A DNA stretch of 64,000 nucleotides, taken from the NCBI RefSeq assembly GCF_001610895.1, contig NZ_CP011276.1:1-64000 (forward strand). Direction: 5' to 3'. This document shows positions 13,524 to 36,996 of the stretch, in pieces. The first letter of the stretch is position 1; every line of letters starts with the position of its first letter. The DNA is from Planctomyces sp. SH-PL62. GTDB taxonomy: Bacteria > Planctomycetota > Planctomycetia > Isosphaerales > Isosphaeraceae. The notes below the pieces were generated by a model that was not told the DNA's origin, did no database searches, and saw only the letters and a list, made by a program, of their open reading frames with translations. The position numbers and the translations under genes are program-made.

Positions 13524-15288
13524 ATCCGAAATCCGAAGGCGATCCGACCCCAACGCCCTGCCCCCTCTCCGGCGCGGGCCGAGCCGCTCGCGTGGGCGTC
13601 GCCCTCTGCTCCATCGCCCTGTTCATCGCGCCCGCCTGGGCCGAGGAGCCCGCCGCGAAGCCTCGCGACGAGGCGCCGACGCAGTCGCCGATCGAGGCGT
13701 TCGACGTCTCGATCTGGGTCGGCAACCCCTCGCAGGCCACGCTCAACGCCGCCAAGTACTACCGCAACGCCATGCCCGGCGTCGTGGGGACGAGCCGGCC
13801 CAAGCTTGATGACGCGAAGCCCGCGGACAAGGGCGCCGAGCGGTTCCCCATCGCGCCGATCTCGTTCGTCCAGTTCTTCGGCGAGCCCTGCCGCGACGTG
13901 GACGTCGACCTCAAGATCAACAAGGGGAGTTTCCTGGCCCACTGGCCCGCCGGCAAGGAGCTCGCCGGCCGGATCCGCTGGTTTGGGTCCGAGCTGACCG
14001 CCGAGCCCCCCGCCGGCATCCCCCCAGCTACCTGCCCGACGACGGCGGCGTCCTGAGCCTTCTGCGCGCCAACCCCGCCGCGCTCTACCTCAAGAACGAG
14101 TCGCGGTTCGAACGGTTCGTCGCGTACGACGCCGAGCCGACGCTGCCGGTCCCCGTCCGCCTCCGGGGCGGGCCGGACGAATACACGCTGCAAAACATGA
14201 GCAACCGCCGACTCCTCGACGTCGCCGTGATCGCCCCCTCCGCGGACGGCTTCCGCGTCGGCTGGCTCGACGAGCTCCCGTCCGCGACCGCCGCGAAGGC
14301 CGACGTGGAGAAGGCGGAAGCCGAGAAGAAGGAGGCGGAGAAGAAGGCCGAGGCCGGGAAGCGGCCCGACCCGGCGAAGCAGGCCGAGGAGCTGTTCCAG
14401 GAAGCGGCCAAGGGCGAGGAGGAGAAGCCGAAGGACGACGCGCCTCCCCCCCTGCCCGCCGAGGGAGACGCCGAGATCCGCGCCCGAGTCGACCAATTTC
14501 TCAACCGGCCGATCACCGTGGCCGTCGAATCCGCCCCCCGGCGCGACCTGCTGAGGATGGTCGCCGAGCAGAGCCGGCTCCGCCTGGAGTTCGATGACAA
14601 GACGCTGGCGAAGGACAAGGTGGAGATCGACAAGCCGACCAGCCTGAAGGCGGCGGGAATCCCCGCGCGGGACGCCCTGGCCGACCTGCTCGGCGGGGTG
14701 GGCCTGAGCTACCGCGTCACCGAGGCGGGCCGACTGTTCATCACCACCGCCGCCAGGCTCGCCGAGGCGAGCGAGAAGACCGGCGGCCCCGTGGAAGGCC
14801 CCCCCGTCAAGCTCGGCATGTCGCAGCCTCTCAAGGCGGCCGACCCTTCGTACCGCGAGTTCACCCGCGACGCCCTGGCCCGGCGCCTCGAAGGCCGAGG
14901 GCTCCGCAAGGACCTCGTCACGCTCCTCCTCGACCGCTACGGCGAAGACCTGTTCGAGCCCGGCGAGCTGATCGTCCTGGCCCAGCTCTCGCGCGAGGCG
15001 ATCGACGAGGCCGTGCCGCTCGACGTCTTCCCGCCGCCGAGGAAGCTCACGCGGGCGGCGCTGGTGGTCGTCCACGGCATCGACCCTCGGCTCCAGGACC
15101 GCGCCAAGGAACTCGTCCGGCAACTCGGCGACCCCTCGTGGAAGTCCCGGGAGACGGCCGAGTCTCGACTCCTCGCTCTCGGCCCGGCCGCCGTCCCGGC
15201 GCTGGAGGAAGGTCTTCGCGACAAGGACGTCGAGGTCGTCTACCGCGTCGAGCGTCTCCTGATGAAGCTCAACCGCAACGTCCCCTGA
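13520..15288 (+). CDS. Exported protein with secretin-N-like and HEAT-like parts, frameshifted
   Basis: Last gene of the operon. The ATG at 13520 overlaps the preceding stop (ATGA). The frame runs to about 14020, where a C run of six should be seven; the same protein (SYLPDDGGVLSLLRANP) continues in the next frame to 15288, about 589 residues in total. Seen: a signal peptide ending near AWAEEP; an Ala/Glu/Lys-rich helical linker; a segment resembling the STN domain of secretins (LLRMVAEQSRLRLEFDDKTL to GLSYRVTEAGRLFITT); and a C-terminal HEAT-like repeat (LVRQLGDPSWKSRETAESRLLALGPAAVPALEEGL). Periplasmic; function unknown. A 15-base palindromic repeat begins nine bases after the stop. Confidence 0.8.
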
Positions 15289-15296
15289 GCCCTCCC

Positions 15297-15311
15297 TATA
15301 CCCCGGGTATC
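15297..15311. repeat. TATAC palindromic repeat, copy 1
   Basis: TATACCCCGGGTATC, nine bases past the stop of the operon's last gene. It differs from the family consensus only at the last base (C for A). Member of a seven-copy set confined to 15.3-17.9 kb. Confidence 0.85.
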
Positions 15312-15351
15312 ACGCGCCAAGACTTGGGATTCGCGCCGAACGGCGCCTCCC

Positions 15352-15366
15352 TATACCCGGGGTATA
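15352..15366. repeat. TATAC palindromic repeat, copy 2
   Basis: TATACCCGGGGTATA, 41 bases after copy 1 and 22 bases before the next start codon. Both copies 1 and 2 are preceded by the same CCTCCC, so they may have arisen by local duplication. The core is the reverse complement of copy 1. Confidence 0.88.
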
Positions 15367-15387
15367 ACGCCGCGCGAAGACGTCATC

Positions 15388-15771
15388 GTGAGGGCCGCGA
15401 TGCTGGTTCCATTCGTCGTCTACCTCGTGATCGTCCTGATGGTCGTCGTTCCGATCGGCTGGTTCGCCTCCGAGTTTCAGGAGCGTCGCTGGTTGCGACT
15501 TGCTCTCGGGACGTTCGCGATCCTCCTGAGCTTCGGCGTCGCTCTTCTCATCGGCGCGACGTTCGAGCGGCTCAATTCCAACGCCTGGTTCGGGGAGGCC
15601 ACCGGGAACTTGCTCCAGGCGACGGTCGTCGAACTGGAAGCGGGCCGACCGGAGAATGCCCTTCGGTCGCTGAAGCAGCTTCAACAGGAGTATCGACCCA
15701 CCTACGAGAACCGGGCGCGGTACGACGTCCTCGTCGAGGAAGCCGTGGCCCGGATGCGGACGGCCCCCTGA
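15388..15771 (+). CDS. Small two-helix membrane protein
   Basis: 127 residues from GTG 15388; ATG at 15400 is an alternative and no strong ribosome site decides. Two membrane helices (about 5-27 and 38-60) are followed by a soluble tail that reads like one TPR-type helix pair (LEAGRPENALRSLKQLQQEYRPTYENRARYDVLVEEAV). I do not recognise the family. It is bracketed by TATAC repeats (copies 1-2 upstream, copy 3 downstream). Confidence 0.7.
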   Translation: MRAAMLVPFVVYLVIVLMVVVPIGWFASEFQERRWLRLALGTFAILLSFGVALLIGATFERLNSNAWFGEATGNLLQATVVELEAGRPENALRSLKQLQQEYRPTYENRARYDVLVEEAVARMRTAP

Positions 15772-15782
15772 CGACGAGGGCC

Positions 15783-15797
15783 TATACCCCGCGTATA
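15783..15797. repeat. TATAC palindromic repeat, copy 3
   Basis: TATACCCCGCGTATA between the two-helix protein and the WD40 gene, 12 bases past the former's stop. First of four copies with the CCCCGCG core. Confidence 0.88.
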
Positions 15798-15860
15798 GGG
15801 ACGGCATCGCTCGCACGGTCCTCGGAATTCCAGGCCCGAACCCTTGCAGGAGGAGAGCTC

Positions 15861-17279
15861 ATGCGTCATCGCCGCCTGGCCCACTGGGTCGTCCTCGTCG
15901 CGACTGTGGTCGGCGCGTGCCAGGCCGGCGAACCCCCGCGACGCTTCGCCTCGTGGAAGGAGAAGGAGGCGAAGGTCGTCGTCTTCTCGCCCGACGGTCG
16001 GTCGCTGGTCTCTTCCGGCGACGAGGGCCATCGGCTCCGCGATGCGGCGACCGGCGAGGTTCGGGCCGTCCTGAACACGCCTCCCATGAAGCTCGTCACC
16101 AAGGTGGAGTTCTCGCCGGACGGGCGGCTCCTCTTCGCCCAGGCGGCCTCGGATCGCGAACGGCCCCTGATCGTCCACGATCTCAAGGTCTGGGACGTGG
16201 CGACGGGCGAACTCCGGGACGTGTTCCCCTACGTCGCCGAGCATCTGGACGAGGGTAGCTTCGCGCTTTCCGGCGACGGCCGCTGGCTTGCCTTCGTCGA
16301 CAACTCCGAGCGGCTCCCCGCGCAGGTGAAAACGGGGCGAATCGTCATCGACGGTCGGCACAACCTCGATATCTCCTCGAACGGGCACCGCGCCCTGCCG
16401 CGCGTGAAGATCTGGGACGTCTCGCGCCGGAAGGAAGTCGCCGTGGTGGACGGCGGCCTCCCGCTCGCCTTCTCCCCGGACGGCGAAGTGCTTGCCACGG
16501 GCGACCGAGATTGGCGGACCCCCGTGGCCAAGCTCTGGTTCACGAAAGTCGGTCGGCTTCCGGCGGAACTCCAGGATCGATCGCCGGGCCTCTGGCCCCT
16601 CGTCTTCTCGCCCGACGGCCGATTCCTGGCTTCGGGGGAGCACGTCGAGAAATCCCTCTGGGACGTCCGCGACGGCCGCCGCTGGCCCATCGAGACCAGT
16701 TCGTCGTCGCAACGGCCGGCTTTCAGCCCGGACGGCAAGCTGTACTTTCCGAACGGGATTCCCAGCATGGATCCGCATCTCGGCGGGCCGAAGGAGTCCT
16801 TCTGTTTCGACCTCTCCGCGATGCCGCCCAGTCGGATCAACCTGGGGGTCGGCGAGATGGTCGTCTCCCACGACGGGCACCGGTACGCGGCTATTCAAGG
16901 GGAGAGTGGCGGGCCAGATCCACGCACCGTAATCCTGCGCGATCTCCCCTCGGGGCGCGAGACCGGCCGCCTCGACGTGACGGGTTTGATGGGGGCCAGG
17001 TTCTCGCCCGACGGCCGATGGCTGGCGCTCCTCACGGCGCGTCAGGTGGCGGCCCATTCGATATGGCAGGTCCGGCTCGTCGACCCGGCCACGGCTCGCG
17101 TGCATGTCGAGATTCCCAGCACCGGTCCGAACTGGGGAAACTACGGCTGGACGTTCTCCCCAGACGGAATGACGCTGGCCGTCTTCTATCGGACGGGGAG
17201 CAATTCCTACCGACCGGGCGATCCGGAGCCCTCCGACCGGCCCATGAACGCGGAAGTCTGGGCGATCCCACCTCGCTGA
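15861..17279 (+). CDS. WD40-like repeat lipoprotein
   Basis: 472 residues from ATG 15861, chosen because CAGGAGGAG stands eight bases upstream; the longer open frame to the left has no such site. The N terminus is a probable lipoprotein signal (WVVLVATVVGAC, lipobox VGAC). The rest is a beta-propeller of WD40/PD40-like blades: the phrase FSPDGR or a close variant recurs at least seven times (VVVFSPDGRSLVSSGDEG, VEFSPDGRLLFAQ, AFSPDGEVLATGD, VFSPDGRFLASGE, and others). Planctomycetes have many such propellers, usually of unknown ligand. The gene is isolated between TATAC repeats 3 and 4. Confidence 0.85.
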   Translation: MRHRRLAHWVVLVATVVGACQAGEPPRRFASWKEKEAKVVVFSPDGRSLVSSGDEGHRLRDAATGEVRAVLNTPPMKLVTKVEFSPDGRLLFAQAASDRERPLIVHDLKVWDVATGELRDVFPYVAEHLDEGSFALSGDGRWLAFVDNSERLPAQVKTGRIVIDGRHNLDISSNGHRALPRVKIWDVSRRKEVAVVDGGLPLAFSPDGEVLATGDRDWRTPVAKLWFTKVGRLPAELQDRSPGLWPLVFSPDGRFLASGEHVEKSLWDVRDGRRWPIETSSSSQRPAFSPDGKLYFPNGIPSMDPHLGGPKESFCFDLSAMPPSRINLGVGEMVVSHDGHRYAAIQGESGGPDPRTVILRDLPSGRETGRLDVTGLMGARFSPDGRWLALLTARQVAAHSIWQVRLVDPATARVHVEIPSTGPNWGNYGWTFSPDGMTLAVFYRTGSNSYRPGDPEPSDRPMNAEVWAIPPR

Positions 17280-17298
17280 CGGCGAACCGCCAATGGCT

Positions 17299-17313
17299 TA
17301 TACCCCGCGTATA
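17299..17313. repeat. TATAC palindromic repeat, copy 4
   Basis: TATACCCCGCGTATA, identical to copy 3, 19 bases past the stop of the WD40 gene. Confidence 0.88.
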
Positions 17314-17505
17314 GGGGCCGCTTGTCGAGAGGCCTCGCAGGTTCGGGCTGCGCGTCGGACGCTTCCGCCAGTGCTCGGGGTCGCCCTCGATCTCCCCCAT
17401 GAGGCGTCGGGCAACGGGGCTGGGAGGGCGGGGGCCTTGCTTCCAGGAGCGTACCGTGTTGGGGATGCCGCCAGCGTAAACCGCGGGCCATTCGCGTGGC
17501 GAGGC

Positions 17506-17520
17506 TATACGCGGGGTATA
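17506..17520. repeat. TATAC palindromic repeat, copy 5
   Basis: TATACGCGGGGTATA, the exact reverse complement of copies 3 and 4. Lies in the gene-free stretch ahead of parA. Confidence 0.88.
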
Positions 17521-17589
17521 CGGACGAACCTCGAAGCGGAATTCTGAAATCCGGATCGCTCGCGCGGCGATCCTATTCCACGGAAGGCG

Positions 17590-17713
17590 CGAACGAACCC
17601 AATCGAAGCCAATCCCGGAAGTCCGAGAGGAGGGCGGCCGGTCGGAGCGAGACGGTCGGCGGATCGCGGGAACACCGCCCCAAGGACCACGAAATGCGCC
17701 GAACGAACCCAAT
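17590..17713. repeat. 14-base direct repeat pair
   Basis: CGAACGAACCCAAT occurs at 17590-17603 and again at 17700-17713, exactly 110 bases apart and in the same orientation, each preceded by a GCGC or GCGCC context. It is unrelated in sequence to the TATAC repeats among which it lies. Confidence 0.7.
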
Positions 17714-17780
17714 TTCGGCGGACGACACGGTCGCCCATGACGAGGGCGGGGGCGGCTGGGACGACGTGCGGAGCAGGGGG

Positions 17781-17795
17781 TATACGCGGGGTATA
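17781..17795. repeat. TATAC palindromic repeat, copy 6
   Basis: TATACGCGGGGTATA, identical to copy 5, 130 bases before the parA start. Confidence 0.88.
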
Positions 17796-17859
17796 GGCGC
17801 GGAGGCAGGCACGCGTCGGGGGCGGAACGTCGAGGTTTGGAGGGCGGACCGGAAAGGCT

Positions 17860-17874
17860 TATACCCGGGGTATA
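17860..17874. repeat. TATAC palindromic repeat, copy 7
   Basis: TATACCCGGGGTATA, identical to copy 2, 51 bases before the parA start. This position would suit an operator for parAB autoregulation. Confidence 0.88.
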
Positions 17875-17924
17875 GCCCGTCCGATACAGGCTCCTGTGAT
17901 CTCGGATTCCGGGGAGGAGGACGC

Positions 17925-18743
17925 ATGCCGGTCATCACGGCCTTGAATCAGAAGGGGGGGGTCGGAAAGACCTCCACCTGCTACCACCTCGCGGGGGCGC
18001 TGGCCCTCATCGGGAGGCGCGTGTTGCTGGTCGACAACGACCCGCAGGCGAGCCTCACGCAGGGGTTCCTGGGGCCCCAGGCGACGCGGGCGCTCGACCC
18101 GGCCGAGACCATCGCCGCCGTCTATCACCAGGAGGCGGTCGCGGAGCAGGTGATCCGGGGGACCCACGTCCCGGGGGTGGATTTGCTGTGCGGCGGCCGG
18201 GCCGCGGGGAGCTTCAACGTCCCCGACCCGCATCTCGTCGACTGGCCGCTCCAGACGGCGCTCCGGGACTTCCTGGCCGACGTCGTCGATCGTTACGACC
18301 TCGTGATGATCGATTGCCCGCCGAACCTGCACCTGGCCTCGTGGACCTCGCTGGTGGCCAGCGACGCGTTGCTCGTCCCGCTCCAGCCCGAGGACTTCGG
18401 GGCCCAGGGGATCGCCGACGTCCAGGAGTCGATCGACCGGGTCGTCGCCGGACCCAACCCGGGCCTCAAGCTCCTGGGGTTCCTGGTCACGATGTCGAAC
18501 CCCCGCCTCTCCGTCCACAAGGGGTTCGAGCAGCTCTTGCGGACCCATTACGGCGACGACGTGTTCACCACGACCGTCCCGATCTCGACCGACTACAAGG
18601 AAGCCATCGTCCAGCGCACGCCGGTCGCGCAGTACAAGCCCAGGGGGGCGGCGACCAAGGTCATGAAGGCGCTGGGCGAGGAGATCTTCGCGCGATTGGC
18701 CGCCGCGGCCGACGCGACGCACGCCGCGGGGGAGGCCGCCTGA
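17925..18743 (+). CDS. parA: ParA-type partition ATPase
   Basis: 272 residues from ATG 17925, with GGGGAGGAGG immediately upstream. The deviant Walker A motif KGGVGKT is at residues 10-16, followed by the A' segment LLVDNDPQASLTQGF and Walker B DLVMIDCPPNL. Length and motifs are those of a ParA/Soj ATPase lacking an N-terminal DNA-binding extension. ParA proteins bind DNA non-specifically in the ATP form and move ParB-bound DNA. One base separates its stop from parB, so this is an operon. The upstream region carries seven copies of a palindromic 15-mer that could be its regulatory or centromere sites. Confidence 0.93.
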   Translation: MPVITALNQKGGVGKTSTCYHLAGALALIGRRVLLVDNDPQASLTQGFLGPQATRALDPAETIAAVYHQEAVAEQVIRGTHVPGVDLLCGGRAAGSFNVPDPHLVDWPLQTALRDFLADVVDRYDLVMIDCPPNLHLASWTSLVASDALLVPLQPEDFGAQGIADVQESIDRVVAGPNPGLKLLGFLVTMSNPRLSVHKGFEQLLRTHYGDDVFTTTVPISTDYKEAIVQRTPVAQYKPRGAATKVMKALGEEIFARLAAAADATHAAGEAA

Positions 18744-18744
18744 C

Positions 18745-19689
18745 ATGGGTAAGCTCGACGAACTGCTGAAGGCCGGCGGGGCGAACATCGCCGAGAGCAT
18801 GGGCGCGGGACGGCCCCGCATGGGCTCGCCGGATCCCGGCGCATCGCCCCGCACGTCGGCCGTCCCCAGCCGCTGGCAGGGGGTGGCCAAGAGCAAGAAC
18901 GCCGTCGAGGTGCCGGTGGACAAGATCGTCCCCGACCCCGACCAGCCCCGCGAGGAATTCGAGCCCGACGCGCTCCAGCGGCTGGCGGAATCGCTCCGCA
19001 CCCGGGGGCAGCTCCAGCCGATCCGGGTCCGCTGGGACGAGGCCGCGGATCGCTACGTCGTCATCTGCGGAGAACGTCGCTGGCGCGCGGCCGGGATCGC
19101 GGGCCTGGCGACCCTCACGTGCGTGGTGTCCGAGGGGCCGATCGACGAGGGCGAGCTGAGGGCCCTGCAATTGATCGAAAACTGCCTGCGCGAAGACCTG
19201 AAGCCCATCGAGCAGGCCAAGGCCTTCAAGGCCCTGATGGAGCGGAACGGCTGGTCGGGCAACCAGGCCGCCAAGGCCCTGGGCGTCGCCCAGCCGACCG
19301 TCGTCCGGGCGCTGGCGCTCCTGGAGCTTCCCGCCCCCGTGCAGGAGCGAGTGGAGCAGGGGACCCTGCCGCCGGGGACGGCCTATGAGATCGGCAAGAT
19401 CCACGACGCCGACATCCAGCGCGAGCTGGCCGAGCGGGTCGTCTCCGAAGGCCTGAGCCGGGCCGAGACCGTCGAGGCTGTCCGCGTCGCGGCCGTGCGG
19501 GCGCCGTCGACCGTCGGCAAGGGGAGGGGGGCGGGCCGGGCCGGCAAGGTCCCCACCACCCGGACCCTGAGGGCCGCCGGATGCAAGATCACGGTCGAGA
19601 ACCGCAAGGGGGTCGACGACGCCCTCCTCGCCGCCGCGCTCCGCGACGCCCTCGTCCAGATCTCGCCCCGGGATGAGCAGGCCGCCTGA
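18745..19689 (+). CDS. parB: ParB-type CTPase partition protein
   Basis: 314 residues. The N-terminal CTP-binding domain has the family boxes: VDKIVPDPDQPREEF (about 58-72), GERRWRAA (109-116, the nucleotide-binding arginine box) and ENCLREDL (145-152). The helix-turn-helix SGNQAAKALGVAQPTVVRAL (171-190) would read the DNA site. A Gly/Arg-rich linker leads to a short C-terminal dimer region. Canonical ParB binds parS and spreads as a clamp. I saw no match to the usual chromosomal parS (TGTTTCACGTGAAACA) near this locus; instead the palindromic TATAC repeats lie upstream. Whether this is the main chromosomal ParB or an accessory one cannot be told here. Confidence 0.92.
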   Translation: MGKLDELLKAGGANIAESMGAGRPRMGSPDPGASPRTSAVPSRWQGVAKSKNAVEVPVDKIVPDPDQPREEFEPDALQRLAESLRTRGQLQPIRVRWDEAADRYVVICGERRWRAAGIAGLATLTCVVSEGPIDEGELRALQLIENCLREDLKPIEQAKAFKALMERNGWSGNQAAKALGVAQPTVVRALALLELPAPVQERVEQGTLPPGTAYEIGKIHDADIQRELAERVVSEGLSRAETVEAVRVAAVRAPSTVGKGRGAGRAGKVPTTRTLRAAGCKITVENRKGVDDALLAAALRDALVQISPRDEQAA

Positions 19690-35137: not shown

Positions 35138-36463
35138 TCACGCTTTCGCCCACGGGAAGTCGCGCGTCCGATCGCTCAGGCGAATCAGGCCCAGTTCTTC
35201 GAACAGGAGCCGGTCGGGGAACCGTGACATCCCCCGGTTCTTCACCTTGTGCTTGGCGCACAACCACCGCCGGAGCCGTTGGCAGCTGTGCCGATCGATG
35301 GCTCGATAGGCCCGGCTCACGGGGCCGAGGCGGAAGTAGTTCGACCATCCCAGAAGCTTCCGGTTCAGTCGGGCCACTCGGTCCTCGACGTCCGTGTATA
35401 GCCAGCGGCGATCGGTCGTCTCGCGGATCTCGTCCCGAAGGCGCGCGACCTTCTTCGCGGACGGGTACGTGCCGATGAAGGCGCGGCCGGTCCGCGGCGA
35501 GTGGCACCGACCGATCGTGTAGCCCAGAAAGTCGAACGACTCCTCGGGGACGCGGCACCGCCGGGTCTTGGCCTCGTTGATCGTCAGCCTGAGCTTGGAC
35601 ATCATGCCCCGCATCTCGGCCATCGCCTCGTCGGCGGAGCCGCGACAGCAGATCACGAAGTCGTCGGCGTAGTTGACGACGTAGGCTTGCATCCGGCGTT
35701 CGTGCCCCATGGTCTTCCAACCGCGGACGAAACGGCGCATGTACACGTTGGAAAGCAACGGTGAGAGCGGGGACCCTTGCGGGGTGCCCCGGCCCTCGTC
35801 CTTGCTGCGGGTCGTTCGATGGCGGCGGCCCCGCCCGTCGACCTCTTCCACCGGAGCCTCCAGCCACATCTTGATCAGCCCCAAGAGGAGCCGATCGCTG
35901 ATGCGCCGGGACAGCGATTTCATGAGTTCGGCGTGCGGGATGCCGTCGAAGTACCCCGACAGGTCGGCGTCGACGACCTCGGTGTGCCCCGTGGCGACCA
36001 GCCCGTGGACCGCCTGCACGGCGTCCAGGGCGCTGCGGTCGGCCCGGTAGGCGTATTGCTCCGGCTCCAGGTCGGCCTCGAAGATCGGCTCCAAGACCAG
36101 CACCACGGCCATCTGCGCCACGCGATCCCGGATCGTCCCGATCCCCAGCGGCCGTCGCTTGCCATCGCCTTTCGGGATGAACACGCGTCGGACCGGAAGA
36201 GGGCGGTACGACTTCGCTTTCAGGTCTGCCGCCAGTTCGTCCAGCCACCGGTCCAGGCCGTACGCCTCGACTTCCTCGAACGTCCGGCGGTCGACCCCCG
36301 GCGCGCCGTCGTTGGCGCGACGGCGGACGTAGGCCCACTCCAGGACGTCTCTTCGGTACACCTTGTCGTACAGCGAGTAGAACCGATAGTCGGGCGATCC
36401 CTTCGCTTTGGCGTGCAACGCCCCCTGGAGTCTCCGAACCTTCGGTGGAGGTGCTAGGCTCAT
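35138..36463 (-). CDS. ltrA: Group II intron reverse transcriptase/maturase
   Basis: 441 residues from ATG 36463, chosen for GGGAG seven bases upstream and because family members begin about here (PPKVRRLQGALHAKAK); the open frame extends to 36658. Reverse transcriptase blocks: GAPGVDRRTF, RRVFIPKGDGKRRPLGI, VVDADLSGYFDGIPH, GTPQGSPLSPLLSNVY and the catalytic YADD (residues 265-268 from this start). The maturase (X) domain follows (RVARLNRKLLGWSNYFRLG). No HNH endonuclease domain; the protein ends soon after at DFPWAKA, so mobility would be endonuclease-independent. It binds and splices its own intron RNA. Confidence 0.92.
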   Translation of the reverse strand: MSLAPPPKVRRLQGALHAKAKGSPDYRFYSLYDKVYRRDVLEWAYVRRRANDGAPGVDRRTFEEVEAYGLDRWLDELAADLKAKSYRPLPVRRVFIPKGDGKRRPLGIGTIRDRVAQMAVVLVLEPIFEADLEPEQYAYRADRSALDAVQAVHGLVATGHTEVVDADLSGYFDGIPHAELMKSLSRRISDRLLLGLIKMWLEAPVEEVDGRGRRHRTTRSKDEGRGTPQGSPLSPLLSNVYMRRFVRGWKTMGHERRMQAYVVNYADDFVICCRGSADEAMAEMRGMMSKLRLTINEAKTRRCRVPEESFDFLGYTIGRCHSPRTGRAFIGTYPSAKKVARLRDEIRETTDRRWLYTDVEDRVARLNRKLLGWSNYFRLGPVSRAYRAIDRHSCQRLRRWLCAKHKVKNRGMSRFPDRLLFEELGLIRLSDRTRDFPWAKA

Positions 36464-36996
36464 CGCCAATCTCCCGGCTCTCATGCCCCTTCGGACGTCG
36501 GTCTTGAACTCAGGCCCCTTTCCTCCGCCGGAGTTGCCCGGCTTCGTCGGTACTACGGGCCTGTCCGTCACCCTAGGCGGCCCGGCCTGTCCCTCGCGGG
36601 CTTCCGGTCGGCGGTCACGACCGCCGCCGCCTGGGGCTTCACGTGTTGCGCCGGGCATCCATGTGCCGGCATGCCGTCGCCACTACCCCGGAGGGATCGC
36701 TGGGTCGTGATCGCTCATGAGGAGGATCTTCCACCGCCTCGATTCTCGCCAGCGACGGCGGCCTTCCCCGTTATGTCGGCGTGTCGGCTCCCTCGTCATT
36801 TCTTTCGGGGCCTGCTCGGCGTTCACTCGCGTTACGGCCTGCCTGCTCGCCGAGCCGCCTGCGCGGCCCGTTTTCTCGAAGGCTTCGGCGGCTTCGTCAC
36901 CTCCGCCGCCGCTCCGATGGCTTCCGGCTGGAGCGACCCAGTTGGCCGGGTGGGACTCGCACCCACTGGAATAACCCGCACCTTTTCACGTCGCAC

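Follow-up and report, generated by a model that had tools for sequence, protein, structure and literature searches.

Introduction

Replicon-specific palindromic centromeres have been described for the Burkholderiales, whose Bsr systems combine related ParB proteins with a short palindrome particular to each chromosome or plasmid. The narrow specificity of each ParB for its site is thought to keep the replicons of one cell apart (PMC5450999, in the portion of the text accessible to us). The specificity of ParB has been dissected in detail for six Burkholderiales sites (PMC5450999) and for the pair of parS and NBS (PMC7383237), according to the accessible sections of both papers. A further relative is KorB of RK2, a plasmid protein that acts in segregation and also represses; its operator OB is a 16-bp sequence located either close to target promoters or upstream of them at distances that can exceed 1000 bp (PMC11790492, accessible sections).

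For the Isosphaeraceae, ParA and ParB genes have been noted on the plasmids pSINAC, pPALBO and pEP7 (PMC5352709, PMC12603096), and a replication initiator protein A has been reported (PMC5352709), as far as the accessible text of these papers goes. The available portions of PMC5352709, PMC12603096 and PMC12704722 name no centromere site; the term “parS” is absent from that of PMC12603096, and in that of PMC5352709 it occurs only inside “parsimony”. Similarly, no parS sites of planctomycete plasmids are described in the titles and abstract openings of the full-text literature searched, in which subscription journals are thinly covered. ParABS is an already known kind of system, and no description of a TATACSC centromere family was found in the literature searched.

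Here we analyzed a 64-kb window (the whole stretch of DNA under study) from Planctomyces sp. SH-PL62, in which seven short palindromes cluster at a parAB gene pair. Judging from sequence comparisons, these palindromes are very probably the parS sites of the ParABS system of an 81-kb plasmid, bound by the plasmid's own ParB. We base this reading on their location, their exclusivity to this locus, their co-occurrence with parB and their covariation with the DNA-contact residues of ParB. The arrangement is like that of the Bsr centromeres, with a difference in the sites themselves: the Bsr palindromes measure 16 bp and are centered on CG, whereas the sites of the window and its family are 15 bp long and usually have one central C or G.

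Results and discussion

A parAB gene pair on an 81-kb contig

The contig with the sites is 81,115 bp long; the other contigs of the assembly are one of 6.5 Mb and three of 98, 86 and 12.5 kb. Its ends do not overlap and the contig does not close on itself, so that the term plasmid rests on its size, on an RPA-type replication-initiator gene at 73445-74920 and on its relatives, since plasmids of S. acidiphila and EP7 carry relatives of the window ParB. The contig also carries a gene for a group II intron reverse transcriptase/maturase (window 35138-36658).

Three elements of a ParABS system were found: a deviant-Walker ParA ATPase gene (AAA_31 2.5e-34; KGGVGKT), an adjacent parB encoding a ParB_N domain, a GERR box (ICGERRWRA) and a helix-turn-helix domain, and repeated inverted-repeat sites clustered at parAB (Table 1). 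A single base separates parA from parB, and ParA is without an extra N-terminal DNA-binding domain. In a search of the PDB, the window ParB matched the structures of Spo0J, ParB and Noc, and only distantly that of KorB (3.8e-11). We placed the start of parA at an ATG at 17925, which has a purine-rich ribosome-binding stretch immediately upstream. The domain match starts at residue 2 and the ParA of three related loci (L064-L066) aligns from residue 1. A mechanical open reading frame reaching back to a GTG at 17496, which would span three of the sites, was regarded as a spurious N-terminal extension.

Table 1 Coordinates of the candidate centromere sites and of the partition genes in the window.
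Feature	Position	Strand	Basis
parS-like site 1, TATACCCCGGGTATC, one arm mismatch	15297..15311	.	motif scan
parS-like site 2, TATACCCGGGGTATA	15352..15366	.	motif scan, window and genome
parS-like site 3, TATACCCCGCGTATA	15783..15797	.	motif scan, window and genome
parS-like site 4, TATACCCCGCGTATA	17299..17313	.	motif scan, window and genome
parS-like site 5, TATACGCGGGGTATA	17506..17520	.	motif scan, window and genome
parS-like site 6, TATACGCGGGGTATA	17781..17795	.	motif scan, window and genome
parS-like site 7, TATACCCGGGGTATA, 50 bp before parA start	17860..17874	.	motif scan, window and genome
645-bp gap separating parA from the 15861-17279 gene; contains 4 of 7 sites	17280..17924	.	sequence, gene model
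parA, 272-aa Walker ATPase (KGGVGKT)	17925..18743	+	AAA_31 2.5e-34, CbiA 7.9e-21
parB, 314 aa, proposed binder of the sites	18745..19689	+	ParB_N 3.4e-23, HTH_ParB 3e-19; Spo0J 1vz0 2.8e-30
ParB HTH domain, residues 150-246	19192..19482	+	domain search
ParB Q183 codon, place of Caulobacter ParB R173 / Noc Q158	19291..19293	+	alignment, covariation
ParB G211 codon, place of Caulobacter ParB G201	19375..19377	+	alignment, covariation

Seven palindromes exclusive to the partition locus

A preliminary description of this DNA had listed seven intergenic palindromes, six with perfect arms and the one at 15297 with one arm mismatch. Scanning the 64-kb window for TATACNNNNNGTATA with up to two mismatches returned exactly these seven, so that the claim of no further copy in the 64 kb holds even to two arm mismatches; the core sequences were also as described, with the CCCGC subtype present in both orientations. 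What had to be revised was the unit: the palindrome itself stands, whereas the 5-bp arms first given were too short. The symmetric unit is TATACSC-S-GSGTATA (S being C or G), that is, 15 bp in which two 7-bp arms flank one central S. Provided that parA starts at 17925, all sites do lie between genes, in gaps at 15289-15387 (two sites), 15772-15860 (one) and 17280-17924 (four). Their spacing is irregular, and the last of these gaps may form the core of the proposed centromere.

Dinucleotide-shuffled windows contained a mean of 0.49 matches and a maximum of two, and none of 100 shuffles reached seven. The exact G/C-core motif occurs six times in the 6.78-Mb genome, all at 15352-17874 and thus within 3.4 kb upstream of the window parB, and the reversed control pattern has no exact match in the whole genome. 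The shuffles and the whole-genome count exclude that the motif is merely as frequent as chance would have it. That the exact motif is completely clustered, rather than spread through the genome, and recurs beside the closest parB relatives (see below) lends support to the earlier suggestion of protein recognition at a dedicated, parAB-linked site.

Multiple near-identical copies in intergenic DNA could also reflect a mobile or genome-wide intergenic repeat that came to lie here by chance. However, no exact copy exists elsewhere in the 6.78 Mb, and with any core and up to two mismatches the whole genome yielded 94 forward matches versus 138 for the reversed control, so that there is no diffuse genome-wide family. 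The whole-genome exact count thus refutes a genome-wide repeat, and we give an explanation of this kind practically no chance of being correct.

The palindromes, which we take as candidate parS sites, were also compared with described ones. Identity with canonical parS was rejected, as the window sites are 15 bp long and have different arms; the canonical 16-bp site (TGTTTCACGTGAAACA) itself was found nowhere in the genome within two mismatches. Canonical parS and the Noc site NBS are nevertheless sites of the protein family to which the window ParB belongs, and two of the residues by which parS and NBS are told apart also follow site bases in the present loci, as described below. Nor did the KorB operator family match: its core, which we take to be TTTAGCSGCTAAA, likewise has a central C or G, and the window sites differ from it in their arms. 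The same genome (G000) encodes a canonical-looking chromosomal ParB (contig C1, 690532-691131) whose two specificity residues are R and G. Since this protein is present while canonical parS is absent genome-wide at that stringency, its parS is probably spelled differently from the canonical one.

The motif accompanies the closest ParB relatives

The exact motif was found in 6 of 45 Isosphaeraceae genomes, the very six that rank highest in ParB identity (100, 86, 85, 85, 79 [partial match only] and 63%). In the remaining 39 it is absent, including one genome of the window's genus (G028), in which the best ParB is 41% identical and no site was found. Motif and ParB thus co-occur (Fisher 1.2e-7, with a 60% identity grouping picked after the data were seen). 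The 79% identity, in genome G031, covers residues 133-314 only; the first 132 residues are unmatched, the 15 kb of DNA read contain no parA, and one site is kept. This locus (L079, contig C68, near 144671-145290), with its partial parB and single leftover site, looks like a decayed partition locus.

At 59% ParB identity, locus L068 has only two variant TATAC-like sites. A TTTCG-N5-CGAAA match in this locus was set aside because two of its copies are an inverted pair 22 bp apart, and because the two TATAC-like variants sit where relatives have sites. Six loci have one site each inside parB, at +83 (L068, L071, L084), +80 (L069, L080) or +71 (L073) from the parB start; this site, near codon 28, must also encode protein. 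The window plasmid is without it.

For the two genes between the window sites, no match was found in any of the six loci of relatives that were compared; two of the six have the gene at 14197, and three have the porin gene that follows parB. Because flanking and intervening genes are often absent while the sites and parB persist, the sites track parAB more closely than they track their other neighbors. This bears on whether the sites are only operators, through which a ParB/KorB-like regulator would silence nearby plasmid genes, with no centromere role. The sites do precede three genes or operons, and KorB, the distant structural relative noted above, combines partition with silencing (PMC11790492, accessible sections). 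Yet the two intervening genes are missing beside sites that persist near parB, and a full Walker-motif parA directly precedes the window parB. We therefore consider a purely regulatory function highly improbable. As parS sites, the two palindromes 50 and 129 bp before parA may in addition let ParB regulate its own operon; no sigma-70-like promoter was found to set them against, which leaves this operator role unsupported.

Other spellings in the Isosphaeraceae

DNA was read around 38 further parB loci of the family, together with the plasmid ends L101 and L102 for wrap-around. Motifs were called blindly as 15-mers (adjusted p < 0.05), with wrap-around versions for two EP7 plasmids. The call was significant for 33 of 39 family loci including the window and missed L065, L067, L079, L082, L097 and L103; L065, L067 and L079 were assigned anyway because they contain exact-arm copies, whereas L091 and L100, although significant, were not accepted, being placed downstream, or G/C-rich and coding-like. 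A 16-mer call was significant only in L087, where it overlaps the 15-mer cluster, L103 and L118. Family motifs were curated by eye, and for L068 and L082 this curation was not blind to the protein alignment.

Six of the 38 further loci carry TATAC-like sites, 27 carry another 15-bp palindrome and five have no accepted motif; with the window locus, 34 of 39 have a motif and L082, L091, L097, L100 and L103 do not. The alternative arms include GATCACC (up to nine copies), GTTTCCC, CTTACAC, CATGCAC and GTTACGC. Despite the different spellings the position is conserved: in 26 of the 27 loci one or more sites fall between -1500 and -820 relative to the parB start, immediately before parA. Altogether 132 family sites fit their locus consensus with at most one mismatch; 89 of these fall in the same interval, and the central base is C or G in 123. 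In L095 the sites lie between -139 and -42 rather than ahead of parA. Some adjacent sites in L085, L081, L086, L098, L077 and L088 are 57-59 bp apart, which suggests a regular geometry in the centromeres of some relatives.

The ParB type beyond the family

A class-wide search found the window ParB type (E <= 1e-38) in 57 of 397 genomes. We read 56 further loci, 54 of them outside the family and two (L158, L159) inside it, and assigned a motif to 44 by recurrence. The remaining 12, some of which are short of upstream DNA, have no motif (L113, L123, L124, L137, L143, L145, L148 and L155-L159). A palindrome within two mismatches of ATTGCC-N3-GGCAAT was found at -1400 to -780 in 34 of the 56 loci; in seven other windows of equal length, any one palindrome was common to at most eight loci. 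Blind-call best matches in L119, L122 and L145 were not used, and recurrent clusters seeded by GTCGGCC, GGCCGTA, GACACAG and AGGTGAC were left out as G/C-rich or as a chance-like match of two loci.

Site bases change together with ParB residues

Q183 of the window ParB aligns with the Arg of the Spo0J recognition helix (GKSRPHIANHL); G211 aligns with the Gly that follows this Arg after 28 positions. We equated these with Caulobacter positions 173 and 201 through the residue names in the accessible text of PMC7383237, not by aligning the Caulobacter sequence. In the published structures of Caulobacter ParB and of Noc, residues at both positions are in contact with bases of the DNA, as far as the accessible text goes. 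According to the same portion of PMC7383237, R173 of Caulobacter ParB contacts G1 of parS, Q173 prefers A1 and R201 prefers C6, both preferences appearing only with lysine at 179 or 184.

The 78 loci with a motif fall into 46 ParB clusters at 70% identity, 45 of which have a residue at 211. All 17 clusters with R211 have C at base 6 of the site, versus 5 of 28 without R (Fisher 2.4e-8), the window type, with C or G at base 6, being counted as not C and five outside cluster seeds having entered the count after the recurrence result was known. The association was seen both within the family (3/3 versus 2/19, p 0.006) and in the outside set (14/14 versus 3/9, p 8e-4). With the same ATTGC arms, five ParBs that have S, A or T at 211 go with A or G at base 6. 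For residue 183, all nine family clusters with Q have A at base 2, versus none of 13 without Q, in the same family set from which this rule was derived. The only family ParB with R183 has G at base 2 (TGTGCGG), like parS. Outside the family the rule fails: all three Q loci with a motif have T at base 2, and one E183 cluster has A there.

Since grouping at 70% identity does not make the clusters entirely independent of one another, we added a test on a tree built from the N-terminal domain alone (76 ParBs, L079 and L154 having been dropped because of gaps). Residue 211 changed seven times and base 6 nine times; these changes share five branches, in the same direction, and none of 20000 random placements share as many. 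Nine changes at residue 183 and five at base 2 likewise share five branches. Thus, in these sequence comparisons, site spelling changes together with ParB DNA-contact residues 183 and 211.

The correspondence with Caulobacter is not complete. With G211, the window sites have C or G at base 6, whereas A is the base that accompanies G201 in Caulobacter. The window ParB is without the permissive lysines; counting residues along the chain puts A189 and E194 there. When sites are aligned on their inner bases, the window A is closer to the axis by one position than its counterpart in Noc sites, and agreement with the 16-bp sites is reached for the outer contact only if bases are numbered inward from the site's outer edge.

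The origin of a plasmid is often close to its partition locus, and clustered non-coding sites near parAB might instead be iterons, which would bind a plasmid replication initiator and mark an origin. The covariation just described, in which spelling follows ParB residues, speaks against this, as do the spread of the palindromes over 2.6 kb, which differs from tight direct repeats, and the 17 kb around the RPA-type gene, which hold no site with up to one arm mismatch. An origin is thus a very unlikely identity for these sites.

We propose that, as parS, each 15-bp site would be recognized by a ParB dimer, with each 7-bp arm read by one helix-turn-helix. If it behaves like ParB, Noc and KorB, the window ParB would load at the sites as a CTP-dependent clamp and spread, and the CTP box GERR is present in the window protein. 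ParA would then move the complex of ParB and its sites, such that both daughter cells inherit the plasmid.

A possible natural series of ParB-centromere pairs

Among the 78 loci we found more than 25 half-site spellings of one 15-bp palindrome. On balance we favor the view that planctomycete plasmids hold a large natural series of ParB-centromere pairs, in which bases can partly be read from residues 183 and 211 and in which respelling relates to compatibility. If so, respelling the centromere would be a way for co-resident plasmids to stay compatible. With many natural ParB-site pairs of different spellings at comparable loci, the predicted rules that R211 reads C6 and, in the family, that Q183 reads A2 are directly testable, as is a dependence of plasmid compatibility on how the centromere is spelled. 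The pairs are also candidate orthogonal ParB-parS pairs for DNA labeling and for stable vectors in GC-rich bacteria.

All 12 Isosphaeraceae genomes with at least two called motifs use a different spelling on each plasmid. Outside the family, the same spelling can serve two ParBs of a single genome (5 of 10 genomes with at least two called motifs), so a distinct spelling per replicon is not universal. The other parAB plasmid of the window's cell, C3, has the motif GTTTCCCNGGGAAAC, and all five genome matches with up to one mismatch lie near its own parAB. In the 12 kb around an extra parB-like copy on C3 (L100, G000:C3:30290-31021), no GTTTCCC site was found within three mismatches. A further parB-like copy on C3 (G000:C3:56447-57119) contains an internal stop.
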